Notes under the pieces: model-generated
Database searches by the model: none
The model's input: the letters and a program-made list of their open reading frames with translations, nothing else
What the model was told of the DNA's origin: nothing
Made by a program: the position numbers and the translations under genes
Shown here: positions 1-23,405 of the stretch, piece after piece
Numbering within the stretch: position 1 is the first letter of the stretch
How the letters are laid out: the number at the start of each line of letters is the position of its first letter
IMG/VR virus record: IMGVR_UViG_3300031788_000341
Location: 1 to 25,378 of that record
DNA length: 25,378 nt
Reading direction: 5' to 3' (one strand)
Origin: a virus

Positions 1-1401
1 CCCACCGACAAAAACAGGTGTTGTTGTTGTGTAATCTTGGACATTCCCAAAGGTATTCGCTCCCGCCAGCGATGCGGCTCCGAGATTAGCTAGGGCGCAT
101 GGGGCTGTTGTGCAGCCTGTTCCGCCGTTTGCTACAAGAACTGTGCCAGTTACATTAGCTGCTGTGCCTGTAGTATTCTGATTCAAAATTGGTACATCTG
201 CTGCTACAATAGCACGAAACGTAGGAATACCGCTTGAACCATTTGGAGAAGCAAGAAAAAGATTCTGAAGTTGACTATTCAAAGAAGCTGTCAAAGCGCC
301 TGTTGTTGCCACAGGACTGTTTGTGACAGTGAAGATCGACGGCATAACAAGCCCAACGGTTGTAACTGTGCCAGGATTAACATCAGTGAACGTACAAGTT
401 GTACCAACACAACTTACCACAGGACCGTTAAACGTATAAGCTCCGGTACCGCCGTTAATTGAAGAAATACCTACATTCTGCGGCACCCAACTTCTAACAC
501 CGAGAGTAGTAGAAGAAAGCACGTAACCTGTAGATGCAGGGTTTCCAAGCGCCGCCTCGAAATCTGTGTATGGATGTGTAGAGGCTGTTCCAAGTCCAGA
601 GACTTGAGTATTAGAGATTGTAAGACTTGGAAGCGTAGTCACAGAATTGGTAATATAGCCAGCAGGATTTGTAGCATTGTATGGCGTAAAACCAAGGGCG
701 ACTTGTTTGTTGTTAAACGTGTTCCAGTCAGTTGAACTGATACATCCGGTAGTTGAAGTGCCTGCGGTCGTACAAGTGATGTTAGGTGTTGTGCCACCGC
801 TAGAAACGATAGGTGCCGAGGCAGTAACAGCAATCACAGCGCCTCCAACTGTACCTATACAGTTCCAGCTTAAGCTGTTATAATACTTCTGACACGAAGC
901 ACTCGTATTCCAATATGTCCCACCCACAGGCTGCTGATTGATTGTCTCTATATCAGCATATCCATAAGCTCCAGCTACAGCTAAAAACCTTGGCGCTGGA
1001 ATAATCGCAGGTATCATAGAAGTAAGACTCTGAGTGCTACCGACAGCCGCTATAGTAAAAACACCACATTTCGTAGAAGCATTAGGACAGATTGTATACT
1101 GCCATGTGCTTCCACTAGGTGTGATAGCGGCATTTTGATACACACTAAACGAAAACGTTCCAGCGCCACCAAGAGAGATCGGTCCTTGAGTCGTTACAGC
1201 TTGCGAAAGAGGAACTCCGTTAATGTTGTAGATGCTGATGTTCTGCTGCGAAGGATTAGGTACAAACTGTGCTGAGATCGTGCCGTTCGTCCACGTTGTA
1301 CCATCGCTATCAATTACAGTTCCTGAGACTGTGGTAGTTTGAGCAAAAGAAACGCTGCCCATACAGAGCAGCGTTCCTAGCAAAGCAAGTAGTTTTTTCA
1401 T
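1..1401 (-). CDS. Tail-fibre-like protein with Sec signal peptide, 3' end outside window
   Basis: The frame is open from an ATG at 1401 to the left edge: 467 codons with no stop on codon-by-codon reading. A strong Shine-Dalgarno (GGAGGG) sits just upstream, within the 9-base gap after the ATP-grasp gene. Residues 1-21 (MKKLLALLGTLLCMGSVSFA, then Q) form a textbook Sec signal peptide with a basic start, a hydrophobic core and an SFA/Q cleavage site. The mature part is rich in Thr, Gly, Ser and Val, with few charges. It begins with a beta-type segment (SGTVIDSDGTTWTNG) and ends in the window with NGGTGCTTAPCALANLGA, a variant of the GGTGATTAxxARxNLG motif common in phage tail fibres. Cysteines come in five close pairs (spacings 6, 10, 9, 4 and 4). 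Position after the ejection proteins fits a receptor-binding fibre. The signal peptide is odd for a virion protein; it may instead be a phage-encoded secreted protein. Confidence 0.8.
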   Translation of the reverse strand, partial: MKKLLALLGTLLCMGSVSFAQTTTVSGTVIDSDGTTWTNGTISAQFVPNPSQQNISIYNINGVPLSQAVTTQGPISLGGAGTFSFSVYQNAAITPSGSTWQYTICPNASTKCGVFTIAAVGSTQSLTSMIPAIIPAPRFLAVAGAYGYADIETINQQPVGGTYWNTSASCQKYYNSLSWNCIGTVGGAVIAVTASAPIVSSGGTTPNITCTTAGTSTTGCISSTDWNTFNNKQVALGFTPYNATNPAGYITNSVTTLPSLTISNTQVSGLGTASTHPYTDFEAALGNPASTGYVLSSTTLGVRSWVPQNVGISSINGGTGAYTFNGPVVSCVGTTCTFTDVNPGTVTTVGLVMPSIFTVTNSPVATTGALTASLNSQLQNLFLASPNGSSGIPTFRAIVAADVPILNQNTTGTAANVTGTVLVANGGTGCTTAPCALANLGAASLAGANTFGNVQDYTTTTPVFVGG

Positions 1402-1410
1402 ACGGCCCTC

Positions 1411-2718
1411 CTAGAGCCAGCAGTTAGTCTCAAGAAACTGATACCGCTTGAGAGTGCTTTTGTTGATGTCAGTACGAAGTTGCATGTTTGGAATCTGAAT
1501 TTTATCAATAGCTCTGTCACAACGTCCAGCGGCTTCTTGAATAGACGAACCTACGCCAATAGGGGCGCAAACAAAACCATAATTACCACTGGTGATAAGG
1601 GTTTTCTTGTTCTTAGAAAGCATCACATCATACATGTAAGTGTTACAAAGCTGTTCAAGGTTCTCAGGATCAAGCCCTTCTATTGGAATGTCTTTAGTTT
1701 TTGGCAGACGTATCTCGGTAGGATACGGCGGCACAGACAATAACACCGACACTCCAAACGGCGCCTCCCATTTAATCTCAGGTGTCTGCATAGAGGCTAT
1801 TTTCTGAAGCATATCAGCATAGCCATGACCATACATCGAAGCTATCGTGGGATCGGCAAGATAACCAAAACGTGGCGTCCATTCTAATCCATAGGCTTGA
1901 TCTTCTGTCAGGATAGTGTTAAGATCGATCATGCCGGTAAAGCTCACACTCCGAAGGATCGGAATAATCTTCTTCAGCCCGTCACAATAAAGCTTAGAAT
2001 CTTCAGAAATCGCAAACACAAGATTTCCGCTGCATCCTGTGTTTGGGCCTTTGTTATCGTTCATGAACTTTTTCTCTTCAAGCGTGCAGGTAAGCATGTA
2101 GAAATTTTCACCGTTAAAAAATCCTGCTACAGAAGCCTCAGTGCCTTTTACAAATTCTTGCAGCAAGAACGGCATGTTTTTAGATTGCTTGTACAACAAG
2201 TCAATTACCTTGAGCATATCAGAAGCGTCTTTAGCTACGTAGGTTAATGACTTGTCTTCGCTTCCACCTGGGCCTTCGTAAGGCTTGTAAACGTATCGTT
2301 TACCTTCTTTCTTGATAAACGCCTTTGCCGCTCCTGTCTCGGTAAATTCCTGATATGGCGGCATCTTAATACCGACTTGCTCCATCGCCTCAATGCCTGC
2401 TTTTCTATCATCCTCGAACGTATGTTCAAACGTTCCATCTCCAATAGTAGGCGCATCCTGTCTTGACGCATCTGCTTGCCTAGCTCTGCCGGTAAGATCA
2501 AACAACGACAAATCATAACCTTTATACGACGGATACCCATATCCAGCCACCGTTCTGCGATGATCTAGCGATAGCTTCTTGGGGGACGGAATAAGTCCCC
2601 CAAGAACATCCTCATAGTCTGATTTGGACAAGTAGTAATCTACGTCATGGCCTTCTGCTAAGAGACGTAGCACAAACCACGCTCCCATGCCGTTATACGA
2701 GGACATTGCTATCTTCAT
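1411..2718 (-). CDS. PurD/GARS-like ATP-grasp ligase
   Basis: This 435-residue protein resembles phosphoribosylamine-glycine ligase, which joins glycine to phosphoribosylamine in purine synthesis. Visible ATP-grasp parts are YKPYEGPGGSEDKS (144-157), QEFVKGTEASVAGFF (187-201), NKGPNTGCSGN (222-232, the counterpart of the PurD DxGPNTGGMG loop) and EWTPRFG (279-285, like PurD EFNxRFGDPE). The C-terminal part (TSGNYGF at 376-382, then IQEAAGRCDRAIDKI and MQLRTDI) follows the GARS-C pattern. The N-terminal part (SSYNGMGAWFV) lacks the usual GxGxREH motif, so the substrate may differ from PurD's. I chose ATG 2718 over an in-frame TTG at 2730, because GGAGG lies 5 bases upstream of 2718 and the TTG falls inside it. 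The gene starts one base after the stop of the preceding gene. The fold is fairly sure; the reaction is not. Confidence 0.8.
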   Translation of the reverse strand: MKIAMSSYNGMGAWFVLRLLAEGHDVDYYLSKSDYEDVLGGLIPSPKKLSLDHRRTVAGYGYPSYKGYDLSLFDLTGRARQADASRQDAPTIGDGTFEHTFEDDRKAGIEAMEQVGIKMPPYQEFTETGAAKAFIKKEGKRYVYKPYEGPGGSEDKSLTYVAKDASDMLKVIDLLYKQSKNMPFLLQEFVKGTEASVAGFFNGENFYMLTCTLEEKKFMNDNKGPNTGCSGNLVFAISEDSKLYCDGLKKIIPILRSVSFTGMIDLNTILTEDQAYGLEWTPRFGYLADPTIASMYGHGYADMLQKIASMQTPEIKWEAPFGVSVLLSVPPYPTEIRLPKTKDIPIEGLDPENLEQLCNTYMYDVMLSKNKKTLITSGNYGFVCAPIGVGSSIQEAAGRCDRAIDKIQIPNMQLRTDINKSTLKRYQFLETNCWL

Positions 2719-2719
2719 G

Positions 2720-3088
2720 CTAGCCTCCAAAAGCTACTTTGTAATACATTTTCTTCCAGAAAAATACCCACTTAACATGGATTAATTCACGGATCAGATA
2801 GACCAGAGAAGGTTTAGGAAGTTTTACTCTTTTATACTGACCTCTCCAAAAACCAAAATCAGCATACTCTACGGAAATATTCTCTCCATCGAGAGGAATT
2901 TTGATGTAGAGTTTCCTATCTCCTACTCTGACAATAAGAACGTGTTTTGGAAAAACAGAACCCCATCCTCGGATAATAGATATACCCTGTGGAATAGGAT
3001 CACATTCTTGTCGCTCTTTGATTTCTTGGAAAGCATCTAGGGGAATTTCCTGATCCCCTAGATCAAAGTTAGTACGTGTAATAGGCAT
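2720..3088 (-). CDS. Hypothetical protein, 122 residues
   Basis: I do not recognise a family. The start chosen (MPITRTNF) is the second in-frame ATG: AAAAGGAG stands 7 bases upstream of it, while the first ATG at 3106 has no such site and would precede the Shine-Dalgarno. The protein is mixed alpha/beta in appearance, with a central beta-like stretch (HVLIVRVGDRKLYIKIPLDG, about residues 49-68). The C-terminus is basic and aromatic, including FGFWRGQYKRVKLPKP and HVKWVFFWKKMYYK. No signal peptide or clear membrane segment is seen, although the C-terminal 30 residues could associate with a membrane or nucleic acid. It lies between a His-rich mini-gene and the ATP-grasp gene and is probably co-translated with the latter. 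Confidence 0.7.
   Translation of the reverse strand: MPITRTNFDLGDQEIPLDAFQEIKERQECDPIPQGISIIRGWGSVFPKHVLIVRVGDRKLYIKIPLDGENISVEYADFGFWRGQYKRVKLPKPSLVYLIRELIHVKWVFFWKKMYYKVAFGG
2724..2728 (-). promoter_or_regulatory. Ribosome binding site that fixes the ATP-grasp start
   Basis: On the minus strand GGAGG stands 5 bases before the ATG at 2718. It overlaps the stop codon region of the upstream gene (stop at 2720-2722), so translation of the two is probably coupled. It argues against the longer TTG start. Confidence 0.75.
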
Positions 3089-3120: not shown

Positions 3121-3294
3121 TTACTGGTGACAGTTCTCTGGCATATCGTGTTGATCAGTGTGGCCGGTCTTTTTCTTGTGAACACTGTCACCACTGTTGG
3201 CGCCGTGATGCTGTGCGTGGTTTCCTGCTTGCTGTACACGCTCCTGCATTGCTTTTGCTTCTTTGAGTGAAAGTCCTGCGGATTGTCCTGACAT
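3121..3294 (-). CDS. Histidine-rich small protein, 57 residues
   Basis: The reading frame starts at ATG 3294, preceded by AAGGAGG 4 bases upstream, which is nearly the ideal Shine-Dalgarno, and ends at TAA 3121-3123. It fills most of the gap between the 614-residue protein and the 122-residue protein. The product is hydrophilic. The N-terminal half looks helical (LSLKEAKAMQERVQQAG) and the rest is rich in His, Lys, Asp and Gly (AQHHGANSGDSVHKKKTGH). Seven of 57 residues are histidine and there is one cysteine, so metal binding is possible. I recognise no family. The ribosome site and the fit between neighbours are the main evidence that it is a gene. Confidence 0.72.
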   Translation of the reverse strand: MSGQSAGLSLKEAKAMQERVQQAGNHAQHHGANSGDSVHKKKTGHTDQHDMPENCHQ

Positions 3295-3307: not shown

Positions 3308-5152
3308 TTAGTCGTTGATTGTTTTAGCAGGGTATACCTGATTAGCTATGATGTTCCCTGCTCCTGGAATAGCCTGTTGTAGAAGATCCTTGGCAAGCGG
3401 CTTGATATTATGCTTGCCTGTCTTGGTAGACTTCGTTGTGAAATTAATCGCATCTTGACCAGTACGAACCGCATCACCTGCGATCGGCCCCATGAGAGCA
3501 AGTGCGAGTCTGTCACCATGAGATGCGGTGATAAAACCATGCATGATACCCCATGAGCCAAAGTATGAGAGCATGTCAAGATACTCGGCGACGTACTGAG
3601 CTACGCTCTGAGGATGAGTTAGATGTTTGTAGTCACTTTGCATACCTTGTAATGCCCTGTCTGGAGAAGCTGTGCGAGCAAAAGTCTCGGCGGCTTTAAG
3701 CATCGGTGCCATCATTGGAAACATCAAGCCGACTGTGCCAGCAAGGCGCGCGATACCGATATAGTCTCCTGCTTCAAACTTCTTCTGTAACTCACGACGC
3801 ATGAAGCGTTGTTGGCTTGAGACATAGCCATGAAACATTGTTAACATACGTGTCCAAGGATTACGAGTCGCATTTAGAGAGCGATCAAACGGACGCGAGA
3901 TGAAAATGCGATCATTTGTAAAGTAGTACATTCCTTTGATCTTTTCTTCTCGTGTAAGCTCACCTTTGCGTTTAATGATTTCTTCAGGATCAAGACCAAG
4001 CTCTTTAAGCTCAAGGATAGCGCTCTTGTCACCTTCTACAGCTTTGGATGCCCAGTAGTTAGTAGCGTGATACCCCATTAGCGCCGAGGCTTTAAGCTGT
4101 GCCTTACGGATAAAGTTGAATCCTGGGTTATGAAAAATTTGCCCATACAAGCGTCCTGCTTCTGGCATTTCGATCTTAGTAGCAATACGGCCAGTCTCAT
4201 TCAACATGTCCTCTGAAAGCATGTGAAAATTCTGTGAAGCAAACACAGCAGAAGCATCCATAAGTTCTTTGATCTCGCCGTTACCCATACCACCCATAGC
4301 TTTAGAGATGCTTTCTAGCGGCGTAGACAGAAGCGGATTCATAAACGTGCTTATGTGATTCACTGCAATCATAGGAGCAAGATACCACCGAGCACGTTGG
4401 GAAGCAAAACGCTCAATAACATTAGTACGTTCATGGACGTTAGAAGTATCAAACTTCTTCAAGTCCACGTGTAACGGCTCCATGTCGTTTGCTGTTCTAT
4501 ATTTATTCTCAAGCTGCAAAGCTTTCTTCATGTCAATCTTGACTTTAGATTGATCCACACCAGATAACGAAGCTCCTAGTTCGTTAACTTCCAGAGTCCT
4601 TGTGGCATCGTGAAACTGGTTCGAGGCAATATTAAGCAATGCATTCGCATGAGCCTCGGCAACAGGATCACCGCTCTCGTACAGAGGCATTATATCACCA
4701 ATCAGCAGAGCATTGTTCTTACCAATGTTCTGATCATGTGAAAGCAGCCGAGCCTGTGCTATGATCTTACTCGAATACTCCGGCAACGTCATGTCAGCAT
4801 TCTTAGGATCAAGACCGATAATCTGTGCAGTATGAGAGGCGGTAGGATGATTTTGGTTCTTCAGATCAGAATGAATCTTTCCAAGCGTAGACTGAAGTTG
4901 TGTAGAATCGTTCTTGATAACTTCATGCACGGCGTTAGCAGGCTTGTAAAGCTCATTCAAGATCTGCTGGCGTTTAAAGTCATAGTCTTTGAGTCTCGCT
5001 CCAGCTTTCATAGCCTCAGGAGAAAGCTTAAACTCTTCCTCTTGAGCAATAAAAGTCTCTCCAGCCATTTTCTTAACGCCAGAGCTACCGAGTTTATCCA
5101 TTGCCCCACGAGAGAGATTACTGATCGCGTCTACTGCTCCACCGATAGCCAT
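3308..5152 (-). CDS. Putative internal virion / DNA-ejection protein, 614 residues
   Basis: The start ATG overlaps the stop of the 917-residue gene by one base (TAATG), so the two are probably co-translated. The sequence is largely helical and Ala/Lys/Met-rich. Hydrophobic stretches lie near residues 254-275 (YLAPMIAVNHISTFMNPLL), 462-485 (GIARLAGTVGLMFPMMAPML) and 527-560 (FGSWGIMHGF and LALALMGPIAGDA). Long soluble helices with late hydrophobic segments, encoded after the tail nozzle and adaptor genes, match the position and style of podovirus internal virion proteins. In T7 these form the channel that carries DNA through the cell envelope. No lysozyme, transglycosylase or protease motif is evident. 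The assignment rests on position and composition, not on a recognised motif. Confidence 0.6.
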   Translation of the reverse strand: MAIGGAVDAISNLSRGAMDKLGSSGVKKMAGETFIAQEEEFKLSPEAMKAGARLKDYDFKRQQILNELYKPANAVHEVIKNDSTQLQSTLGKIHSDLKNQNHPTASHTAQIIGLDPKNADMTLPEYSSKIIAQARLLSHDQNIGKNNALLIGDIMPLYESGDPVAEAHANALLNIASNQFHDATRTLEVNELGASLSGVDQSKVKIDMKKALQLENKYRTANDMEPLHVDLKKFDTSNVHERTNVIERFASQRARWYLAPMIAVNHISTFMNPLLSTPLESISKAMGGMGNGEIKELMDASAVFASQNFHMLSEDMLNETGRIATKIEMPEAGRLYGQIFHNPGFNFIRKAQLKASALMGYHATNYWASKAVEGDKSAILELKELGLDPEEIIKRKGELTREEKIKGMYYFTNDRIFISRPFDRSLNATRNPWTRMLTMFHGYVSSQQRFMRRELQKKFEAGDYIGIARLAGTVGLMFPMMAPMLKAAETFARTASPDRALQGMQSDYKHLTHPQSVAQYVAEYLDMLSYFGSWGIMHGFITASHGDRLALALMGPIAGDAVRTGQDAINFTTKSTKTGKHNIKPLAKDLLQQAIPGAGNIIANQVYPAKTIND

Positions 5153-7905
5153 TACTGAACCTCCGCACTAGCCATTACTTTACGTACTCTAGCCATTAAC
5201 TTGGCTACTTTGTGAGCATCGCCGCTGAGATAAGCATCCATCTCTTGATCGTGAAGAAGCTTTAACGAACTTTCGTAGCGTGTGCGCGCTTCAATAGCAG
5301 CCTTTGACTTGCCAGGATAGAACTCTTTGCCTTTAGCAATGTCGAGTTTGTGCGCGCTCTCAATCAACCTAGAATCACGTTGCCACTTAGAAAGCGAGTT
5401 TTCTCCGTGTATTCCAGGTTGAGAGGAGCTAAACACATTCCGTTTACCGTACTGTTTATACCACTTCGAGCGTGTGAAAATATCTACATGGTTTTGAATC
5501 GCTTGACCAAACTCATCAATCTTCGCTGTAGTAGGACGTGAGCCAAGGAGCTTACTCATCTTAGGACTGTTCATCAAGACTTCTTCAAGCTTGTTTGCTA
5601 CAGCTTTAGGAAGTTTGCTTCTGTATGAGTGCATGTAGGCTAAGAAGTTTGTATAGTCTCCGCCTTGAGTGTTAGCTTTCTCGAAGGTTAAGCCGTAGTC
5701 TTTGAGAGGATTGAAGTAAGTTCTCAAATCATCAGCTAGTGCATGTGCAACGCTAACGTCATCATCGTTCTTGCCAGCTATATCGGCGACGTACTCTTGC
5801 CAAAACTTAGCAGAGCTCTTGCCACCTTTAGCTCTTGCTGCTGCATCTGCGGCGACGTTCCAATTAAACGAGATGCCCATTTGATAGCCAGTAACACGTC
5901 CAGTCTTGTCGTAGTCATAACGAGACTCCACACGTCGTGAAGCAGTCTCGATAGGCTGATTCTTTGCAACGTTCTCTGGACCTGTGACAAGCTTATCCTC
6001 AGCAGCTTTTCTGACAGCTTCGGTACGACGTTTAAGCATCGTAGCTTCTGCTACTTTTTTTGCTTTCTCAGCGCCACCAGGATGCTCTTTGAAAGCTTCT
6101 TGCTGCTTCGCAAGCTCCTGTTCCCACTCCTGTTTTCCAGCAGGAGTCTTCATATAATCTTCAAGCAACTCCTGTCCTTTCATCTGCTGTACTTCAGGAA
6201 CATGAAGATCCATCTCTATGGCGGCTTGGTTAGCTTGGGTGTGCAGAAACTCTATCAAACCTTTAAATTCTCTTGACTGTGGATCAAGATCTTTCAGCAT
6301 CAATCCACGTTCTTTGAGATAGTTATGAATCATCGTCACAGCAGAAAATACAGGTTTATAGTGCGCAGGATCGTTCTTGATCTGAGCCTTGGCCCATGCA
6401 ATATGCTCTGCTTCAGTAATAGGCGCACGCTCTGTCATAACAACTCGTGCAAGAGCTTCTTCGTAGATAGAGTGTTGAAGTGACATTCCTCCAGCAGCGA
6501 TATTCGATGCCATTTCACGGCGGTGAGCTTCTAAGTACTCGTCAGGAGTAGCAGAACGCTTTCCTTGCATCCCAAGTTCAGCCTCACGCTCCGCCGCTGA
6601 CATAGAAGCTTTCTCAGCTCCTTCAGGAAGCATATCAACTAACTTAGACACGCCTTTACCTGCAAACGAGAACAGTGTTCCCGCAGCAGCAAACTGTAAC
6701 ACCGTCTTCCAAGCATCTTTTTCATCCTTCGCATCAACAGTAAGATCATTAAAGATAAGACCTTCAGTTCCATAGGTTAACATCTTAGCAGCAGTTTGGC
6801 CTAGTTTCGTAGCACCAAGAGTCTCAGTAAGATTCTTGATAATTGGAACACCTTCTCCAGCCTTACCGACTAAGCCTATGCCAAGCTCTGAGGCTTTGCC
6901 GATAGCGCCAAAGAGAGGAAGTAGCATAGCATTCTCTACCACAAACGAGGATGCTTTCTCAGTAAACGTTCTCGCGGGAGTTACATCACGCCAGAAGCTT
7001 TGCTGAGAGGATATATCGTGCATCCACTTAGAACCACCAGTGGGATTACGTTCGCCGGTTTCTTCGATAGTTTCGGATACTCCTGTGAGTAGGCCGTCTT
7101 CTTTCACACGATTGTGCATGTTTACAAACAGGTTGTAGAAACCTGTCAAGCCTGTCAGATCACCACTCTTGATTGAGTCCTCAAAGGCTACAATAGGAAG
7201 CCCAGCAACGTTTGTGATACTGCGTACAGCATTCATTGTAGAAGCAATGGCGCTATCTTCACCATGCAAAGCGCCTTTGAAAAAGCCTCCGCTGTACGCC
7301 TGCGAAGGATCATAAGATAAACCAGTCTTCCAAGCATTACGAAGCCATATGTCCTTAGACAGAGGAGGAGCACCCATCTTCTGATACAGCGGCGCCAGCG
7401 TTTCATCGTAGTATTTTGATGCTATCTGCGTTTTTGTAGCGTCGTCTTTGCCAGAGAATACCGGCGCTTCCTGTGCCCAACGACTCATACTGTTTGCTAG
7501 ACCGTCATATGGATCGTCAAACAGAAACGGATTCAAGCTGGTGTCTTTCACAGCTTGAATCTTCTCGCTATCGTGTAACGAGTTCAACGAATGATACTTC
7601 TGCCTAATCTCCGAGACCTGAGACTGGCGGATAAAATTACCCATCTCTTCTTGCAACGCGCCACGAAGATTAACGCTTGTGCTAGTCTGATTTTGACTTG
7701 TCCGGGTCGAAGAATCTTTCGAGCTTCCTGGCATCTTTATTAACGGAGTCAACGGTTTGCTCGACGTTATGGCTGAGGATACCTTCTCCGTAGTGCGCTT
7801 TAATAAGGAGTCTGTCTGTTGTTGAAACGCCAGACTTCCAGGGAGCGCCTGTTCTGGGGTCGAGGTCGGTACTTGGGGTTGTGCTTGTGCTAGCTGCTCC
7901 GCCAC
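5152..7905 (-). CDS. Putative large internal virion / ejection protein, 917 residues
   Basis: Translation appears to begin at a GTG (7903-7905) with AAGGAG 6 bases upstream. This puts the first 74 codons inside the end of the 522-residue gene, in a different frame. That overlapped segment is low in complexity (Gln, Ser, Thr, Pro, Ala-rich: AEQLAQAQPQVPTSTPEQA), and ordinary-looking protein begins around residue 80. Two hydrophobic regions lie near 320-360 (SSFVVENAMLLPLFGAIGKA, then GIGLVGKAG) and 398-424 (LQFAAAGTLFSFAGKG). A charged helical region follows (about 500-660), with many Lys/Glu/Ala. Size and place parallel the large ejection proteins of T7-like phages (gp15/gp16). I see no peptidoglycan-cleaving motif. 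A shorter form from ATG 7644 is possible but has a weaker ribosome site. Confidence 0.62.
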   Translation of the reverse strand: MAEQLAQAQPQVPTSTPEQALPGSLAFQQQTDSLLKRTTEKVSSAITSSKPLTPLIKMPGSSKDSSTRTSQNQTSTSVNLRGALQEEMGNFIRQSQVSEIRQKYHSLNSLHDSEKIQAVKDTSLNPFLFDDPYDGLANSMSRWAQEAPVFSGKDDATKTQIASKYYDETLAPLYQKMGAPPLSKDIWLRNAWKTGLSYDPSQAYSGGFFKGALHGEDSAIASTMNAVRSITNVAGLPIVAFEDSIKSGDLTGLTGFYNLFVNMHNRVKEDGLLTGVSETIEETGERNPTGGSKWMHDISSQQSFWRDVTPARTFTEKASSFVVENAMLLPLFGAIGKASELGIGLVGKAGEGVPIIKNLTETLGATKLGQTAAKMLTYGTEGLIFNDLTVDAKDEKDAWKTVLQFAAAGTLFSFAGKGVSKLVDMLPEGAEKASMSAAEREAELGMQGKRSATPDEYLEAHRREMASNIAAGGMSLQHSIYEEALARVVMTERAPITEAEHIAWAKAQIKNDPAHYKPVFSAVTMIHNYLKERGLMLKDLDPQSREFKGLIEFLHTQANQAAIEMDLHVPEVQQMKGQELLEDYMKTPAGKQEWEQELAKQQEAFKEHPGGAEKAKKVAEATMLKRRTEAVRKAAEDKLVTGPENVAKNQPIETASRRVESRYDYDKTGRVTGYQMGISFNWNVAADAAARAKGGKSSAKFWQEYVADIAGKNDDDVSVAHALADDLRTYFNPLKDYGLTFEKANTQGGDYTNFLAYMHSYRSKLPKAVANKLEEVLMNSPKMSKLLGSRPTTAKIDEFGQAIQNHVDIFTRSKWYKQYGKRNVFSSSQPGIHGENSLSKWQRDSRLIESAHKLDIAKGKEFYPGKSKAAIEARTRYESSLKLLHDQEMDAYLSGDAHKVAKLMARVRKVMASAEVQ

Positions 7906-9250
7906 TTTGTACTCCTTCGCCTACTTTAACTGTGGGAATCTGAAGACGCGAATCGGTTACATCTACACCGAGACCTTTTGCTATGACGTTACGATTGAGA
8001 GTAAAAGCGTTCTTGGCTTGTTCATCCATAGCGTCCATGCTTTGAAGCTGACGCCGGATCTCAGCACCACGACTCGCGCTTGCTTTATCTAACTCATTGT
8101 TTAGTGCTTGACGACTTTTCTGATTCTCGGTGATAGCTGTCTCATAATTCTTCTGAGACTCGTTAAAAGCTTTAAGCACTTCAACTGGATTACCTTGTTT
8201 AAGCATTTCAAGAGAACGATCAGCACTTTTCCTGTAGGCTTCGAGACTAAGAGAAGCTGCGTTATTCTTATCATCCTGCTTATTTTTAAGAAGCTGCGTG
8301 TCGATCTTAGAATCAGCCTCTATAGCTGCCTTACGAAGATCAGCGGCTTTGTTAACTTCTGCCACGTTGAGATTACCTTCCGCCCGCATTTTTTCAACCC
8401 AAAGAGGACCGAGAGCTTTGACAGTTTCAAGACGTTCTTTATTCTGGTTCTGAATAGCTGCGATTTGATTTTGTGCTAAGACGTTTGCCGCCATCCCCTG
8501 TGGCTGGCCTTTAGCAAAAGCTTCGCCAGCGACTTTACCACGAGCCTCGTTCTGTCTTTGCTGCTCTTCTTTCATTATTTGGCGCTTCTCTTGCCATGAG
8601 TGAGCCTCCTTCATCGCAGACATCGCAGCCATATGCGCTGGAGTTTTATTCGATTCAGGATCAGTATAGCTGATATCAAAACCTTTGACTAGTTCTTTTC
8701 TTCTCTTAGGATCAGCAAGGATAGCCTCTTTAGTCTTTGTATTTTGATCAATCATCTCCTGAGCCTTTGTCGCCATAGCTTTGTACTGAGCTTGAGCAGG
8801 ATCGTCTGGTTTAGAATTCTGCATCAAAGACTGAGCAGACTCTAATTGCTGTTTGGCTTCGTCAATCATTTGTTGAGATTGTATAAGCTTAAGTGCAGAG
8901 TCTTTGATCTCGTTCTGCTTAATCTGCGCTTCCTTCGTGACGACAGCGCCGATAGCATTGGTAGCGCCTGTGATAGCATTACCGATGCCTTGAAGCTTTG
9001 CGGCCTTTCTGCCAACAACTTGACGCTGATCCATCGGCCTGTCTTGATGAGGACCAATAGGCTGCTGTAACGACGAAGGCACCTGCATAGCATGTCCACC
9101 TTGCACAGGCGTTGTCGCTGATTGAGTCAAGCCCTGTGGAAATGGCAAGGAGATATTCTGAATCAGACTTGCAATATCAAGTCCGCCGTTAGCTTGTGCC
9201 GAGGGTGTTGCTGGTACACCTTGTACTTCTGCTGCGCTTGGAAAAGGCAT
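7682..9250 (-). CDS. Putative internal virion protein, coiled-coil rich, 522 residues
   Basis: ATG 9250 has AGGAG 6 bases upstream. The N-terminal 75 residues are low in complexity (Pro, Gln, Ser). A short hydrophobic, Gly/Ala-rich stretch follows (GIGNAITGATNAIGAVVTK, about 87-105). The long middle (about 105-425) is dominated by Gln, Ala, Lys and Glu in heptad-like patterns, so it is probably extended helix or coiled coil. The C-terminus is again Thr/Ser/Gly-rich with an ordinary soluble end (FFDPDKSKSD). The last 75 codons are shared with the start of the next gene in another frame. The order 252-522-917-614 residues after the tail genes suggests a role as an ejection or core protein, by analogy with T7 gp14 to gp16. 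No catalytic motif seen. Confidence 0.65.
   Translation of the reverse strand: MPFPSAAEVQGVPATPSAQANGGLDIASLIQNISLPFPQGLTQSATTPVQGGHAMQVPSSLQQPIGPHQDRPMDQRQVVGRKAAKLQGIGNAITGATNAIGAVVTKEAQIKQNEIKDSALKLIQSQQMIDEAKQQLESAQSLMQNSKPDDPAQAQYKAMATKAQEMIDQNTKTKEAILADPKRRKELVKGFDISYTDPESNKTPAHMAAMSAMKEAHSWQEKRQIMKEEQQRQNEARGKVAGEAFAKGQPQGMAANVLAQNQIAAIQNQNKERLETVKALGPLWVEKMRAEGNLNVAEVNKAADLRKAAIEADSKIDTQLLKNKQDDKNNAASLSLEAYRKSADRSLEMLKQGNPVEVLKAFNESQKNYETAITENQKSRQALNNELDKASASRGAEIRRQLQSMDAMDEQAKNAFTLNRNVIAKGLGVDVTDSRLQIPTVKVGEGVQSGGAASTSTTPSTDLDPRTGAPWKSGVSTTDRLLIKAHYGEGILSHNVEQTVDSVNKDARKLERFFDPDKSKSD
7912..7917 (-). promoter_or_regulatory. Ribosome binding site inside upstream gene, supports GTG start at 7905
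   Basis: AAGGAG on the minus strand, 6 bases before GTG 7903-7905. It lies within the coding sequence of the 522-residue protein and is the main reason to accept the 224-base overlap. Confidence 0.65.
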
Positions 9251-9259
9251 TTTTAACTC

Positions 9260-10018
9260 CTATGCATAAGTTGAAAGACCGGGAAGATCGTTCGCGCCAG
9301 TAGAACCAAGTGAAGAAGGCACAGGACTGGCGCCGCCGAAAGAACCCATCTTTGATGCTACACCCATGCCTCCTGTGACCTCATCAAGCCCCATAACATC
9401 TCCTGCTACAGAACCAACGTCACCAAGAACCTGTCCGATCATATTAAGCGGGCTAGAGTCTGACACCTGCTTCGCTGCTGTAGGAGCAATGCCCATAAGC
9501 ATTTGCTCAGTCATTTGCTCTTGGTTTTGTATCAGCGAATTACTTTCTCCTGCAATCATACCTGTTTCCTGGGCCTGAAGGTTTGCATTACCGATTGCTG
9601 CAACAGAGGAATTAGATCCTACCCCTCCAGCACCAAGAGACATATCAAGGTTAGACTGAGCCTTAGCTTCTTGAGGCTGAAGGCTCTGGATATAGTTCTG
9701 CAACACAACAGAGTTTGTGCCACTCATAGAGTCGAGAAAAGAATTTAACGATCCTCCTACGCCAGCGCCGTAAATATCACCAAGCTGATTCCCTAGCGCC
9801 CCACCCCCATTAACAGAAGGAACAACAGAAGTCGGCATTGCTCCTGTGGATGCTGTCGCAGGAATCAATGGATTCGATGTAGTTGCTTGCGCTGTTCCTG
9901 TGCCTGCTATTGGATTAGGAGTAGCGATAGCAGGAAGCTTAGCCTGTGTTCCAGCGCCAGGAGTGGTTTGGTTGTTTCCTGCTGGATTCGAGTACGGCAC
10001 CATGTTATTTGTCGCCAT
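9260..10018 (-). CDS. Putative small internal virion protein, 252 residues
   Basis: The ATG at 10018 follows the previous stop by one base (TAGCATG), with a GGGGAA ribosome site in front. The first 70 residues are low in complexity (Thr, Pro, Gly, Asn, Ala). A more ordered segment follows at about 90-170: NSFLDSMSGTNSVVLQNYIQ, LQPQEAKAQSNLDMSLGAGG and SVAAIGNANLQAQETGMIAG. A Gly-rich tail contains hydrophobic turns (LGDVGSVAGDVMGLD). Small, Gly/Ala-rich and first in the row of putative ejection proteins, it occupies the place of T7 gp14. I cannot name a family with confidence. Confidence 0.6.
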   Translation of the reverse strand: MATNNMVPYSNPAGNNQTTPGAGTQAKLPAIATPNPIAGTGTAQATTSNPLIPATASTGAMPTSVVPSVNGGGALGNQLGDIYGAGVGGSLNSFLDSMSGTNSVVLQNYIQSLQPQEAKAQSNLDMSLGAGGVGSNSSVAAIGNANLQAQETGMIAGESNSLIQNQEQMTEQMLMGIAPTAAKQVSDSSPLNMIGQVLGDVGSVAGDVMGLDEVTGGMGVASKMGSFGGASPVPSSLGSTGANDLPGLSTYA

Positions 10019-15463: not shown

Positions 15464-16423
15464 TTACGGTCCCTGAGTCCCCCAGACTCCCTGCCACCGT
15501 GGGCACCAAGCAGCAACTCTCATACGAGTCTTCTGCTTGATAGCGTCGGTATCAAAATCATCATCAAAGTCTGTAGTAGGCTTTTCACGATTAATGACTT
15601 CCAGAGCATGATCCGCCTTATCTGCGACAAGATACCATGCGCTAGGAGAGTTAAGCCACGGAACCTCGATGTTCTTGTAATCCTCAGGCAACAGAGAGTT
15701 GATGGTGTTATCTGCTGTATAAGGCTTACCAGAAGAACCGAGGATCTCACGAACTAGGAAGCGTAATTCAGGAGGCGTGATCAAGTTAACCCAACGCAGT
15801 CTGATCGGGAAACCCATGTTGTCAATCATACGCGCTGCGTGATTAGTGGCAAGTTGCAGACCAGCAACCGAGAAATCTACGTCCACCGAGGGACGGTTAG
15901 GATATGTACCCGGCGCTGAGATAACACCCGCTGCTCCAGGAGCGATCTGCGTAGCCTGTGCTCCGCCGAGAAGAGCGTGAGTATTGTAGAACAAAGGATT
16001 ACCGTCAAAAGTCGTAACCGCTGACGTGAAGCCTTGATTAAACACATTCCACGCGATCATCTCTTTGGTGAACGCTGCGCTACGAGCAAGCAACGTCGGT
16101 CCTTTCTTGCCGACAAGACCGTATCTGTCATCATCGTACAATTCCTTGGAAGTTCTAATACCCAAGGAATACGTGAGTGGCTCGACTCTCTTGGAAGCGC
16201 CCTGCTTCATTTCTGTATAAGCGGTCGAACTATTTTCAGGTTTTTCTTGAAGAACCGAAATCCCGGCCATTTCAAGCTCTTGCTCGTACTCAAATTCCGA
16301 ATCTACCTCGTGAAAGACTTTCGGATAATCTGAAGCTTTGAGCTGGTTATCGAGGCTGTCAAAGTAGATTTTCCTCAGCCCCGGCTGCATTAGTTGTGAA
16401 AACTTCGCTCGTACTTGAGGCAT
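15464..16423 (-). CDS. Major capsid protein (HK97-fold type, Mu gpT-like)
   Basis: 319 residues, starting at ATG 16423 with AAAGGAG 7 bases upstream. The early region has VRAKFSQLMQPGLRKIYFDS and YPKVFHEVDSEFEYEQELE. The middle has VEPLTYSLGIRTSKELYDDD (80-99), which fits an HK97-type E-loop and spine helix region. FDGNPLFYNTHALLGG (139-154) matches the conserved segment with an LFxxxHxLxGG shape in Mu gpT-type capsid proteins. The C-terminus has WYLVADKADHALEVINREKP and MRVAAWCPRWQGVWGTQG, like the P-domain end of this class. It self-assembles with the scaffold and portal into the prohead. It lies directly after a decoration-like gene and is followed by hairpins that may define the message end. 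No protease gene is seen nearby. Confidence 0.85.
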   Translation of the reverse strand: MPQVRAKFSQLMQPGLRKIYFDSLDNQLKASDYPKVFHEVDSEFEYEQELEMAGISVLQEKPENSSTAYTEMKQGASKRVEPLTYSLGIRTSKELYDDDRYGLVGKKGPTLLARSAAFTKEMIAWNVFNQGFTSAVTTFDGNPLFYNTHALLGGAQATQIAPGAAGVISAPGTYPNRPSVDVDFSVAGLQLATNHAARMIDNMGFPIRLRWVNLITPPELRFLVREILGSSGKPYTADNTINSLLPEDYKNIEVPWLNSPSAWYLVADKADHALEVINREKPTTDFDDDFDTDAIKQKTRMRVAAWCPRWQGVWGTQGP

Positions 16424-17733: not shown

Positions 17734-18464
17734 TAAGCGTACCCAATCCCTTCTTCGTCCAGTATCTTAGCGTAATCAGCAGGTTTCATTCCAAGAAGAC
17801 GAGCTGTTTTGAGAACTAATGGATCATTCTCAAGGCCACGGAGAGTAGAGGCTTTGTCGTCAGCAGCACCGCTTGAGCCAGCAGAACCATTAGAGGTTCC
17901 GTTTGTGCTTGTAGATCCAGCGAAGCGACTCTTGATCTTGCCTTCTACAATCTCATCATTGTGACGACCAAGAACTGTAAGATAACAGTTCTTGATAACA
18001 GAGGGATCATTCCGAGCCTGAAGCGTTTGACCGGCGATAAGAGTGTCGATTTCTTTTTTGATGTCGCCGTGGTAGTACTTGAATTCTTTCTCATCTTCAA
18101 ACACTTCACGACGAATATTAGCAGCATTCAGTGTCAAGATAGCCGAAGTATGTCCCTGAGTAGCCTTGGCTATAGCAGCTTTTGGATCAGTCAGAAACAA
18201 TTCCTCAATCTCAGCATCAGTTTCTTCTTGCGTCCTAGAGTTCTTGAGCCTCAACGCTGTTGCTGCTTCGGCGTCTTCCTTGTCTTTATGCGCCTTAGAC
18301 TGCGTTTCCATGATACTCTTAAGTCCATTAAGAGTCTCCATCAGCTTCGGCATCTGCGCCGCTGCATCAGCACCAGCTTTGATCTGATTCTGAAGCTCGT
18401 CAGGAAGAGTGAACTCCTCTGTTCCATCTTCCTTTGGTTTTTTCTGCCATGAAAATAGTGCCAT
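17733..18464 (-). CDS. Putative scaffolding protein, 243 residues
   Basis: The ATG at 18464 overlaps the preceding stop (TAATG). The sequence is charged and helical almost throughout: ADAAAQMPKLMETLNGLKSI, QEETDAEIEELFLTDPKAAI and KEFKYYHGDIKKEIDTLIAG. A Ser/Thr/Gly/Asn linker near 185-205 is followed by a C-terminal helical region (LRGLENDPLVLKTARLLGMK, PADYAKILDEEGIGYA). High helix content, low aromatic content, size and location between portal and capsid fit internal scaffolds that guide prohead assembly and leave before packaging. No protease motif. Family-level homology was not recognised directly. Confidence 0.65.
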   Translation of the reverse strand: MALFSWQKKPKEDGTEEFTLPDELQNQIKAGADAAAQMPKLMETLNGLKSIMETQSKAHKDKEDAEAATALRLKNSRTQEETDAEIEELFLTDPKAAIAKATQGHTSAILTLNAANIRREVFEDEKEFKYYHGDIKKEIDTLIAGQTLQARNDPSVIKNCYLTVLGRHNDEIVEGKIKSRFAGSTSTNGTSNGSAGSSGAADDKASTLRGLENDPLVLKTARLLGMKPADYAKILDEEGIGYA

Positions 18465-18781
18465 TAGAGTTCGCCCCTTTCTTGTGAAGCTTGATACTGT
18501 TCCAGCTTACTTGCTACTCGTTCATTTCGATCTTCGATTTCTTTTAACACTTGTGGAAGTTGAAGAACCGAGTTAAAAGACTTGAGTTGCGTTACTTGAA
18601 TCCTTGTTTTAGCTGCAATAACCTCATCAGAGTCTAACAGATTTAAAGCGCACATAGCTTCATACGCTTCTTGTCTCACTCTACTTAGGTAAGCCAGTAC
18701 CGGCTGGAACTCCTCCCGCTCCCACAACTCCTGAAGGGACTTGCGATACGGGAGAAGATCCCCTACTTTGCTGATTTCCAT
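18464..18781 (-). CDS. Small helical protein overlapping portal gene, 105 residues
   Basis: ATG 18781 with GGAG 6 bases upstream lies inside the portal coding sequence, so the two share 101 bases in different frames. The product is strongly helical and charged (SLQELWEREEFQPVLAYLSR, VRQEAYEAMCALNLL) with coiled-coil character (LKEIEDRNERVASKLEQYQA). A small helical protein between portal and scaffold suggests a head assembly factor. The ordinary look of its N-terminal residues, against the low complexity of the portal tail in the shared bases, suggests this frame is the more constrained one. No family recognised. Confidence 0.65.
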   Translation of the reverse strand: MEISKVGDLLPYRKSLQELWEREEFQPVLAYLSRVRQEAYEAMCALNLLDSDEVIAAKTRIQVTQLKSFNSVLQLPQVLKEIEDRNERVASKLEQYQASQERGEL

Positions 18782-20633
18782 TACCTGCTCCTGCTCCAGG
18801 CTGTGCCTGAGCCATTTTCATGGCAGCTTCGACAATCTGTTCCACGGAAGGAAGCTGTGTTTCAGTATTGTCTGAGTTAAAAGAACGCAGCAAAGCTTGC
18901 ATAGTAGCCCTTGTTGCAAGAAGAGATTCGCAGTAGTACATTTTAAGGTCGGGTGGAATGTTCGGAGTAGTGATTGCTTGGATCATTTGAGACTGTGAAG
19001 CGTAGTAGCGATCCAGGCGATCAGAGAGCAAGATGCCGTTCTGACGCTCAAGTTCTTTGTTCATAGAGGCGCTAGATGGACGAAGCCGTAGTCCAAGAGT
19101 GCCGTCTTTATAGAGTTCCAACGCTTTCTTAAGCTTATCAGCGGAGTTGTTATACTTCTTAAGCTTTTCTCCAATTCCAAAGTGTGAATACATCGTCAAA
19201 AACTTACCGCCAAGCTTAACATGTGATGAGCGTATATCACCAGTTCGGAGACTGTTTCTGTTGTTTTGTTGCATCATCACCATGCTAGTACCAGCGGCGC
19301 TGTAGATACCGCGCTTCTGGTTTACAATGCCGCCGCCAGTACCACCCATCGCAGGATCTACGCCAGTACGTTCTTTAGCGATAGCCATGTGAAATTGATC
19401 AGGACCATCATTGTAGCCGACGTCTACTCCAGTCTTAATCCACTCTACCTCATCCTTACGTCCAGGAATAGCGACACCAGGAAAAATATCAAGTATCGAA
19501 GAGAGCTTCGACTCGGGATCCACACGCCATGCTCCGAGCATAGCATAGTTACGATTGTCTGTGCGCCAGTTGTTGTTCTGCGAAAGCTCTTTCTGTACCA
19601 TATGAATCATCTCAGCAAACCCAGTGCCAAGATAAGACTCGTCATCGTAGGCAAGCTTCGAGTCCTGGTACGGAAGCATATTCTTGGGATAGTTATTAAA
19701 CACTATCCATAAAATCTTCTCAGTCGCCTTGTGGTACTTCGCCTGAAACGCATACGTCAAGCCGTTCAGAATAAATGTAAAGTGGACATTATACACATAC
19801 CAGCGAGCAGCGCCAGTATCGACTCCACTAGAATCAATAGAAAATTGCGCATTTATCTCACGTTCCATTTCTGTTTCTTGCACGGCGTCAGGACGATTGA
19901 GCAAGTCGTCTATGTCAGATTGTTTGTAATAAGGACTCTTGGATTTAAGATCCTTAACAGCCCAATAATCAAGAGATTCAATATGACCCATGAATTTCAT
20001 GTTTTCGAGCTTCGGAACTGAAGGATCAAAGATGAATCTGTTCAGCGGCATCAGTTCAGGATGAGGGCCATCACGTTTTGTGAAGATATGGTCTGTAGAT
20101 GTAACCGGCTCTTCTCCTAGTCCACCGCTGCCATAGAGACGCTCAACCTGTTCCTCATACTCGTATGGAGAGTAGATAACTCCTGTGCCATATTTAATAG
20201 CGCTATGCCACGAACTCTGCTCGACCCTGTATAAATCAAGCTCGTCAGGATCATAAGCCATGTCCATGAGGAAGTTTTGAATTATGCTCTTGAGTTCCTC
20301 TGTATCCTTCGTCGGCAAATCCCCAGACATTACCGCAGACCACAACGGATCGTACATATAAATGCCGCCCATAACACGAGCGAGCAACTCATCACAGGCA
20401 GTGCCGATAACAGGAATTACCAGATTCGCAGCGCCAGGCCAAGGAAAGTCCTTCGTCTCATTCTTAGGCTTAGCCTTGTATAACCGCACATACTCAGGCA
20501 GCTTCTCAGTCCTGAAAGTCTGCAAGCGTCTATCAAGATGAGCGCATTTATCCTTGATAAACATACACAGGTCAGCGTAGTTATCCTTGCCAAAAAGCTT
20601 CTCGGTAACTAACGTAGGCGGTTGATAGGGCAT
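18681..20633 (-). CDS. Portal protein
   Basis: 650 residues from ATG 20633, coupled to the upstream gene by a one-base overlap and preceded by AAAGGA. Residues 63-78 read FPWPGAANLVIPVIGT, close to the FPWPGAxNxxxPxI block near the N-terminus of many podovirus portal proteins, followed by a helix (ACDELLARVMGG). Further parts are the wing-like ITSLDY/DHIF region, the stem/crown region with EMIHMVQKELSQNNNWRTDN and DGPDQFHMAIAKERTGVDPA, and C-terminal helices ending at about 612. The last roughly 35 residues are Gly/Pro/Ser/Val-rich and overlap the next gene. The portal forms a dodecameric ring at one head vertex through which the terminase pumps DNA. Confidence 0.88.
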   Translation of the reverse strand: MPYQPPTLVTEKLFGKDNYADLCMFIKDKCAHLDRRLQTFRTEKLPEYVRLYKAKPKNETKDFPWPGAANLVIPVIGTACDELLARVMGGIYMYDPLWSAVMSGDLPTKDTEELKSIIQNFLMDMAYDPDELDLYRVEQSSWHSAIKYGTGVIYSPYEYEEQVERLYGSGGLGEEPVTSTDHIFTKRDGPHPELMPLNRFIFDPSVPKLENMKFMGHIESLDYWAVKDLKSKSPYYKQSDIDDLLNRPDAVQETEMEREINAQFSIDSSGVDTGAARWYVYNVHFTFILNGLTYAFQAKYHKATEKILWIVFNNYPKNMLPYQDSKLAYDDESYLGTGFAEMIHMVQKELSQNNNWRTDNRNYAMLGAWRVDPESKLSSILDIFPGVAIPGRKDEVEWIKTGVDVGYNDGPDQFHMAIAKERTGVDPAMGGTGGGIVNQKRGIYSAAGTSMVMMQQNNRNSLRTGDIRSSHVKLGGKFLTMYSHFGIGEKLKKYNNSADKLKKALELYKDGTLGLRLRPSSASMNKELERQNGILLSDRLDRYYASQSQMIQAITTPNIPPDLKMYYCESLLATRATMQALLRSFNSDNTETQLPSVEQIVEAAMKMAQAQPGAGAGNGNQQSRGSSPVSQVPSGVVGAGGVPAGTGLPK

Positions 20634-21536: not shown

Positions 21537-23405
21537 CTATGCTGCTGATGCAGCCATACGACGTACGAACTTAGCACGTTGCTTGGACATGAAGTCTTCG
21601 ATATGTTCTTGAGAGCGTGTGTCAAATTTCCACACTTGAGGACCGTAGCTTATAACATCAAGCAAGTCGATTAAACCTTTTCGCTGACCATAGTTTTCAG
21701 CTTCTTCTTTGAACTCGGTGCAGTTGTTAGCATCCAGCCAGAGTTCGTGCGCCTCGACCGTAGGGATAAAGTTCTCGATTCTCTCAGCCTTGGCGCCAGC
21801 ATTCTGTGGAGTCTTGAGAGGAAGAAAAACAATCGCTGCTATCTCAGGTCGCGAACCTTTATGGTCTGCGACAAACTCGTTGAGATGATAGAGCAAGTAC
21901 TTCTGCGCTGCTACAGCCTCGACGTAGACCTTTGTAAGCTTCCATTTCACAGCAAAGAAAAAGACAGCTTTGACAAACTCCTTGATGTCTACAGCCTTAG
22001 CCCACTGATCGAGCAGATAGATTCTACGAGGATCACGACTCACACCAGTCACCGCGATAGCATGACGGCATCGTCCTTCTTTACCTGCCTCTTGTCCAAG
22101 GTGTGAGCCACCATGATTAGGATCGACAACCATGTAACGATCGAGGTTACGTGGGAATATATCTTTTTCTACATCTCCATCAGCTACGTGATGACGGATA
22201 GTTATTCTGTACTGCTGAGGCTGCGAAAGCTCAAAGAGACGTGACGCTGAGGATTCTTTGGGAATCGAAAGAGCGCCAGTAACTTTCTCGAAATTGAAAT
22301 ATCTAAAGTCCGCCATATTAAACCTGGCTTTAGTCGGATCAATAGGATAGTTGAGAAATTGACAAGAAAAATGATAGCTACCAAGACGGCGCTTCCAGCG
22401 TAGAAGCTTCTCACGTGTGAAAGCCTCAGGAAATATAGGCTCGCCGAAAGGATGAAGAGCACAGCATCCACCAAGAGCAGAGTGTGTTGTCCAAGAGAAA
22501 TAAGGTTCTTCCTTGCGGATGTGGCTATTAAGATCATCGTGACTCCATCTGTTTCCTACTACGATTTCATCAAAGTCTCGTCCGGGATTATCGGGATCAC
22601 TATCTGTGGCGCCGACAAGAATCTGGTGGTAGTCGATTGTGTCTGCCATGACGACTGAGGATTTTCTTGCTTCTCTTCCGACAAGATCATCCTGGACCAC
22701 AACGTTATAGTGTCTGGACTGCAAAGCCGCTCCAACACCGATAAAATCAAACGTTCCTTCGCCCTGTCCACGCCCGGCTGGAGTTCTACGTTGATGCAAA
22801 CTCTCATTCGTCCATGTCTCTTTCTCGGTAGGCATTATCTCTGGAAAGAGATGCCTAAAGAAGGTGTTGTTCTCGTAGTGATTTGAGATACGAATACCTA
22901 GTTTGATAGCGTTCTTAATTGTCTCAGAGACCAAGAGGATACGAATGTCTTGAGAATGCGTTCGTCGCATCCATTCAATATACAAGTCTGAATATCCGAT
23001 ACTGGTGAAGAAATCTTCTTCCCGTTTACCGAATGGTAAAGCACGCCAGATTGGAAAACACTCGCTGTAGACAGTAGATTTAAAGTGATCTCTAGGTATT
23101 TCAATTCCTTCTTTAAGGCCATCTTTCATCACCGTGAGACACATTTGATAGTGGAGGTTCTTGGATTTGTCAGGGTTTTTAGAGAAGCGGTTCTTACCCA
23201 TGACCACGGTGGCGAAGTAGTATAGATCCATCAGAGCATTAGCGCGAAAGATTTGCTTTTTCTCGTCTGAGGTCTTGGCTATGTCTGTGGGTATCAGATT
23301 ATAACCTAAGATCGTAGATCTAGGTACGAAAGTATCTCCAGTCTCTCCTATCTCTAGGGAGCGGAGAATCTCTCGTACCTTCTGATCTACTTCACGCTGA
23401 CTCAA
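21537..23405 (-). CDS. terL: Terminase large subunit (TerL)
   Basis: 622 residues from TTG 23405. No in-frame ATG or GTG gives a full-length protein, and an in-frame TAG lies just upstream. The ATPase domain shows a Walker A variant PRDHFKST (104-111; PRGHGKS is usual), Walker B YNVVVQDD (233-240) and a coupling segment VVGNRWSHDDL (282-292). The nuclease domain has D428 in YMVVDPN, E496 in VYVEA and D583 in LLDVISYG, the expected metal-binding acids. Together these mark the motor that cuts concatemers and packages DNA through the portal. Length is normal for the family. The ribosome site is weak (AGAAAG), so translation is perhaps coupled to the Ig-like gene ending 18 bases upstream. Confidence 0.93.
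   Translation of the reverse strand: MSQREVDQKVREILRSLEIGETGDTFVPRSTILGYNLIPTDIAKTSDEKKQIFRANALMDLYYFATVVMGKNRFSKNPDKSKNLHYQMCLTVMKDGLKEGIEIPRDHFKSTVYSECFPIWRALPFGKREEDFFTSIGYSDLYIEWMRRTHSQDIRILLVSETIKNAIKLGIRISNHYENNTFFRHLFPEIMPTEKETWTNESLHQRRTPAGRGQGEGTFDFIGVGAALQSRHYNVVVQDDLVGREARKSSVVMADTIDYHQILVGATDSDPDNPGRDFDEIVVGNRWSHDDLNSHIRKEEPYFSWTTHSALGGCCALHPFGEPIFPEAFTREKLLRWKRRLGSYHFSCQFLNYPIDPTKARFNMADFRYFNFEKVTGALSIPKESSASRLFELSQPQQYRITIRHHVADGDVEKDIFPRNLDRYMVVDPNHGGSHLGQEAGKEGRCRHAIAVTGVSRDPRRIYLLDQWAKAVDIKEFVKAVFFFAVKWKLTKVYVEAVAAQKYLLYHLNEFVADHKGSRPEIAAIVFLPLKTPQNAGAKAERIENFIPTVEAHELWLDANNCTEFKEEAENYGQRKGLIDLLDVISYGPQVWKFDTRSQEHIEDFMSKQRAKFVRRMAASAA

Follow-up and report, generated by a model that had tools for sequence, protein, structure and literature searches.

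Two large phage genes share DNA in two reading frames

How can two large neighbouring phage genes share a long stretch of DNA in two reading frames, how is the downstream gene started, and why is such an arrangement kept? These questions are raised by the virus record IMGVR_UViG_3300031788_000341, whose 25,378 bases are referred to here as the window. Gene A (9250..7682, minus strand) starts at an ATG and encodes 522 aa, and gene B (7905..5152, minus strand) starts at a GTG inside gene A and encodes 917 aa. The region that they have in common (7682..7905, minus strand) spans 224 nt, and in it the gene B frame is +1 relative to that of gene A. Gene A is preceded by a gene for a 252-aa protein (9260..10018, minus strand), and gene B is followed, with a 1-nt overlap, by a third gene of 614 aa (3308..5152, minus strand). 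Gene names other than those of TerL and the major head protein were assigned from position or weak matches; the 252-aa protein, A and B are T7 gp14-, gp15- and gp16-like by position only.

The initial annotation had read this locus as two separate genes sharing 224 nt in two frames, a reading that is confirmed by the ORF coordinates, a second contig, the relatives and the selection acting in the two frames. The +1 relation of the frames also holds, so that a −1 shift would not fuse A and B. The second IMG/VR contig (3300028909_000034; 46,168 bases) could be compared with the window over 12,456 nt and shows a single mismatch. Since the two differ only at the distant position 1492 and are identical at the junction, a missed base, for which the initial annotation had recommended a check, is very unlikely as the source of the overlap, with the proviso that this contig may share reads with the window.

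The overlap is retained among distant relatives

A scan of viral contigs with gene B gave 28 loci, 25 of which reach the junction. Excluded were L014, L027 and L032, which are cut off at or before the junction, and L011, L013, L019, L030 and L033, which were taken as duplicates from their identical gene coordinates rather than from a comparison of their sequences. This left 20 distinct loci, among which L009 represents the window and L035 nearly repeats L029. Extra viral scans with A3 and A4 returned only contigs that had already been found. Overlaps of 89–239 nt, all of them +1, were present in 18 of the 20 distinct viral loci, and with a 104-nt +1 overlap in L057 the long +1 overlap occurs in 19 of 21 lineages overall. 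For eight loci (L012, L015, L017, L018, L020, L023, L025 and L036) the gene B start was moved from the first in-frame start toward a ribosome site; when first in-frame starts are used instead, the long overlaps measure 89–251 nt. The contig of L057 was binned to a Sulfuriferula MAG; it may stem from a prophage or from a free phage, or the binning may be wrong.

In the two loci that lack a long overlap, L028 and L034, genes A and B are in 1-nt contact only. The overlap is therefore dispensable, which counts against a selected arrangement. In a tree rooted at its midpoint, one side of a branch with support of 100/100 is made up of the four long-overlap members that form the window clade; L034 groups with L020, which has the overlap (99/99), and L028 with L031 (87/80, not well supported). 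With this midpoint root only, the tree fits two losses of the overlap, in L028 and in L034. Gene B identity to the window is 58–69% in L010, L012 and L015, and 22–28% in the other 16. The overlap thus has the look of an arrangement that is old and under selection rather than of a sequencing slip. It resembles the same-strand overlapping genes of dsDNA viruses in its +1 phase and its terminal position, but it differs from them in being kept between proteins that are only 22–28% identical and in its length, 224 nt as compared with a median of 14 nt (interquartile range 8–26) for +1 overlaps of virus genes (PMC8903798).

Both frames are constrained within the window clade

The initial annotation had suggested that substitution rates be compared in each frame among relatives. 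Between L009 and L010, third positions of gene A changed at 0.33 per codon in the overlap and at 0.51 nearby. When the three pairs among L009, L010 and L012 were pooled, synonymous change at conserved codons of gene A amounted to 0.245 in the overlap, a value as low as in none of 377 segments of equal length (mean 0.565), and the corresponding value for gene B in the same three pairs was 0.206, which was likewise reached in none of 769 segments (mean 0.504). The drop in gene A synonymous divergence begins at the internal GTG start. Pairwise tests found this drop to be significant in all four pairs for gene A (p 0.0083 or less) and in three of four for gene B; the gene B synonymous rate was not lowered between L012 and L015 (p = 0.41).

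We further determined omega by counting changes according to their effect in both frames. For the pooled three pairs of L009, L010 and L012, the two-frame omega was 0.42 (0.24–0.66) for gene A and 0.57 (0.35–0.89) for gene B. Both intervals lie below 1, and purifying selection acts in both frames within the window clade. In the clade of L017, L018, L023 and L036, where the overlap covers about 31 codons, omega was 0.76 (0.43–1.39) for gene A and 1.55 (0.73–4.51) for gene B, neither of them different from 1.

The openness of the frame under codon shuffling alone is weak evidence. Synonymous-codon shuffles of gene A left the +1 frame open in 11% of cases for the window, 3% for L010, 18% for L012 and 14% for L015, and in 4–92% at loci outside the window clade, which for the window is too weak a result and counts against the overlap being more than chance. 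It is by its conservation and by the selection in two frames, not by shuffling, that the overlap goes beyond chance. What joins the two large virion-type genes is a well-supported dual-coding junction, long and conserved, and the phage family that carries it has poor matches elsewhere.

Probable initiation of gene B inside gene A

The internal GTG had been described as having a good ribosome site, and indeed the sequence AAGGAG (7912..7917, minus strand) lies 6 nt before it, within gene A codons. Translation of gene B is most likely initiated on its own, from this Shine-Dalgarno site. A Shine-Dalgarno-like match of at least 5 nt, at a spacing of 6–12 nt, precedes the internal start in 14 of the 18 overlapping loci, a count that is favoured by the shifted starts, as 8 of the 18 were chosen partly for this feature.

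It is highly improbable that gene B truly starts at ATG 7644 (residue 88), past the gene A stop, and that the GTG reading is an annotation artefact. This ATG is present in the sequence, and the first gene B residues are of low complexity and were modelled at low confidence, as would suit such a reading. A Met matching it is found in three of the four members of the window clade but is missing in L015, and both the onset of the gene A synonymous constraint at the GTG and the frequent ribosome sites before the internal start speak against it. Lowered synonymous change does not name its own cause, and with a ribosome site nearby it might also reflect an RNA or DNA element instead of coding in the second frame. 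This, too, is very unlikely, as the constraint in the window clade spans the overlap with a protein-level signature in both frames, and the +1 frame is free of stops across the overlap in 18/18 loci; the RNA folds of six start regions did not exceed those of shuffled sequences in stability (z 0.54 to 1.59), which also counts against an RNA element. A fusion of A and B produced additionally by programmed +1 frameshifting is hardly to be expected. Although the frames stand in the +1 relation in all 19 long-overlap lineages, a constant phase is expected from common descent, and the gene B frame meets a stop no more than 57 nt before its start in 17 of the 18 loci, and 135 nt before it in L023. 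Moreover, programmed frameshift pairs have a second frame without a start of its own, whereas gene B has its own start, the GTG with AAGGAG at 6 nt.

The position of the gene B start is nearly fixed

A further question is how the overlap arose, for which the initial annotation had proposed a backward extension of gene B across an end of gene A that was older. From a conserved proline of gene A (P250 in the window) to the gene B start, the distance is 194–215 codons in all 18 overlapping loci (198 in the window), and from the gene A stop to a conserved tyrosine of gene B it is 25–41 codons in 17 of 18 (75 in L021). The stretch between start and stop measures 73–80 codons in the window clade and 30–52 elsewhere, the extra length being present in both frames. 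The start is thus nearly fixed and only the length of the tails varies, so that backward growth did not find support. The extra length in the window clade would rather fit an expansion inside an old overlap that lengthened both tails than a start migrating backwards.

Some observations do agree with backward growth: in the window it is the gene A frame that has the marginally more genome-like codon usage (−0.11 v −0.16), and judged by omega this frame is slightly more constrained than the gene B frame. Against it stand, besides the near-constant start and the location of the extra length between start and stop, the places of L034 and L028 within overlapping groups on the midpoint-rooted tree and the codon usage of the family, which is nearer to the rest of the locus in the gene B frame in 15 of 18 loci (a tie in L031, the reverse in the window and L026). 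On balance we regard backward growth as unlikely. By the logic that codon usage can point to the newer frame (PMC3744397), these values, although mixed, hint that the gene A tail may be the newer one.

The overlap probably encodes flexible tails

The AlphaFold2 models of both proteins had low confidence overall, with a mean pLDDT of 60.4 and a pTM of 0.31 for gene A, and 65.6 and 0.39 for gene B. Gene A can be divided into an N-half, a low-confidence hinge (residues 236–265), a helical C-half (257–427) and a tail from about residue 448. Apart from the hinge, model confidence was below 50 at residues 441–460 and 488–503 of gene A, and in gene B at residues 1–23 and 40–93. Every ten-residue block of the two tails encoded by the overlap averaged below 70. 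As had been stated from the sequence of the window, the first 74 residues of gene B are of low complexity (53% S/T/Q/P; at 3.60 bits their entropy falls among the lowest 3% of 74-aa segments of both proteins) and the gene A tail is ordinary (3.88 bits against a mean of 3.85). In these models the gene B start appears to sit where the helical C-half of gene A gives way to the tail, and the shared DNA probably codes for a flexible C-terminal tail of gene A together with a flexible N-terminal tail of gene B. From this it would seem that a long overlap can persist over extended periods when it is housed in flexible protein tails.

Genes A and B as putative ejection proteins

The label of ejection proteins that the initial annotation had given to A and B is plausible by gene order; convincing homology or a fold match was not obtained. 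The order in the window is TerL (21537-23405), a probable portal (18681-20633), the major head protein (15464-16423) and then a 253-aa gene, the 252-aa gene, A, B and the third gene. TerL and the major head protein were recognised by PHROGs matches, and the portal by weak matches only (PHROGs, Pfam). Genes A and B of the window had no match in PHROGs or Pfam, gene B had none among PDB sequences, and gene B and the neighbouring 253-aa gene had none in 50,697 phage records, of which three were matched by TerL at 23–26% identity. Twenty family members each of A and B gave scattered weak PHROG matches only; the best values were 0.0019 for A, to a single family annotated as 'virion structural protein', and 0.0027 for B. 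Foldseek searches with the low-confidence A and B models returned no match with E ≤ 0.001.

A and B lie after the head and connector genes, which is the T7-type position, and by this gene order they are plausibly internal ejection proteins. They are like T7 gp14-gp15-gp16 in this position, and the models here are large and mostly helical, but the sequence and fold matches are not convincing and a long overlap connects the second and third proteins. An overlap of this kind is not known between T7 genes 15 and 16.

Elsewhere in the family, the TerL on the contig of L017 (L070, 64-2682) carries an in-frame, intein-like insertion of about 245 aa, with Hom_end_hint and Hint matches below Pfam's cut-offs.

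The overlap belongs to an exchanged cassette with one edge inside gene A

Sequence comparisons of the loci reveal that the second half of gene A, the overlap, gene B and the third gene form a cassette that is exchanged as a block, with a break near codon 247–256 of gene A. Across 190 locus pairs, the identity of the gene A C-half tracks that of gene B (Spearman 0.39) and that of the N-half does not (−0.10). In 18 pairs with a similar gene A N-half (≥0.55) and an unrelated gene B (<0.35), the C-half was unrelated (<0.25) in 18/18, although these pairs share a few lineages and the thresholds were set after the data had been seen. Neither a similar C-half (≥0.45) beside an unrelated gene B nor an unrelated C-half (<0.25) beside a similar gene B (≥0.55) occurred in any of the 190 pairs.

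DNA similarity stops at gene A codons 247–256 in six comparisons, involving L010, L015, L022, L023, L029, L035 and L036. The left edge of the cassette in the window lies at 8483..8579 (minus strand; codons 224–256), where similarity to L007 ends at 8579 apart from an island at 8483-8521, and similarity to L007 resumes at 3294, just past the stop of the third gene. It likewise resumes just beyond the third gene in L010, these right edges having been set against the gene ends in the window and L010. TerL, outside the cassette, was detected in 16 of 22 records, with a best match of 63–100% identity; some of the records are fragments and one is the window's twin.

The break coincides with the low-confidence hinge of the gene A model. 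In T7, according to PMC8954989, a hinge in gp15 splits a flexible N-part, which gp14 is presumed to stabilise, from a C-part that the N-terminal part of gp16 stabilises. This fits the exchange point inside gene A, and a break between the two halves is what such contacts would predict for a gp15-like gene A. The gene A C-half, overlap, gene B and third gene are inherited and exchanged as a unit, probably because their products, which may be in physical contact as are the gp15 C-part and gp16 N-terminus of T7, work together as internal ejection proteins. We consider it likely that this explanation holds as a whole, combining a conserved dual-coding junction, an independent start of gene B, flexible tails and a co-exchanged block of putative ejection proteins. 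The overlap is in this way tied to a recombination unit whose edge falls within a gene.

Beside the cassette lies an ATP-grasp gene (1411-2730, minus strand), with a GARS_A match above Pfam's cut-off, which is also found in L002 and L057. The gene after it (1-1401, minus strand) has a signal-peptide-like beginning and no Pfam match, and may encode a fibre.

A short motif recurs in the tails of several virion-type proteins

Within the overlap, codons 12–15 of gene B (7861..7872, minus strand) encode VPTS, an N-terminal motif that recurs in the family; in the 252-aa protein of the window the motif stands at residue 52. Motif tests used 19 or 15 representatives. The pattern [VI]P[TAS][STA] occurred in the first 80 residues of gene A in 12/15, of gene B in 10/15 and of the 252-aa type in 10/15, against shuffled means of 1.3, 1.2 and 2.2, and 0 of 2000 shuffles scored as high, statistics that are weakened by the homology of the rows and by the pattern having been defined after the sequences had been viewed. 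In the corresponding N-terminal 80 residues none of 13 third-gene, 14 adaptor-position or 3 ATP-grasp proteins carried it, and 1 of 10 large tail proteins did. The gene B proteins lacking it in this region were those of L015, L024, L025, L026 and L031, some of them near misses. The pattern was widened for the portal test, and this looser form, [VI]P[TASQ][SAGT], stood within the final 60 residues in 10 of the 11 probable portals (the window's twin being one of them), as against 1.2 on average in shuffles. The gene B motif lies inside the overlap in 7 of 10 cases and beyond it in L028, L034 and L029, and is therefore not a mere by-product of gene A codons.

It is conceivable, albeit doubtful, that VP[TAS][STA] is a shared docking or packaging signal for assembly of the core on the portal, and that carrying it is part of the reason for the start of gene B inside gene A. 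Internal proteins of phage T4 carry a capsid-targeting sequence, to which the VP motif would be analogous as a short N-terminal signal common to several packaged proteins. The VP motif differs in that its looser form also occurs in the C-tail of the probable portal, and the two are likened here by their putative role. Should the VP motif indeed serve in packaging, the question of how podovirus-like core proteins find the portal would have a testable answer.

The window holds a second long +1 overlap (18681-18781, minus strand), in which the end of the probable portal gene and a 105-aa ORF (18464-18781) share 101 nt. With the start nearest to the conserved position, this overlap measures 98–122 nt in 11 of 12 loci, including the window's twin (L069 gave no match). 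The portal tail within it holds a GGVPAG-like motif.
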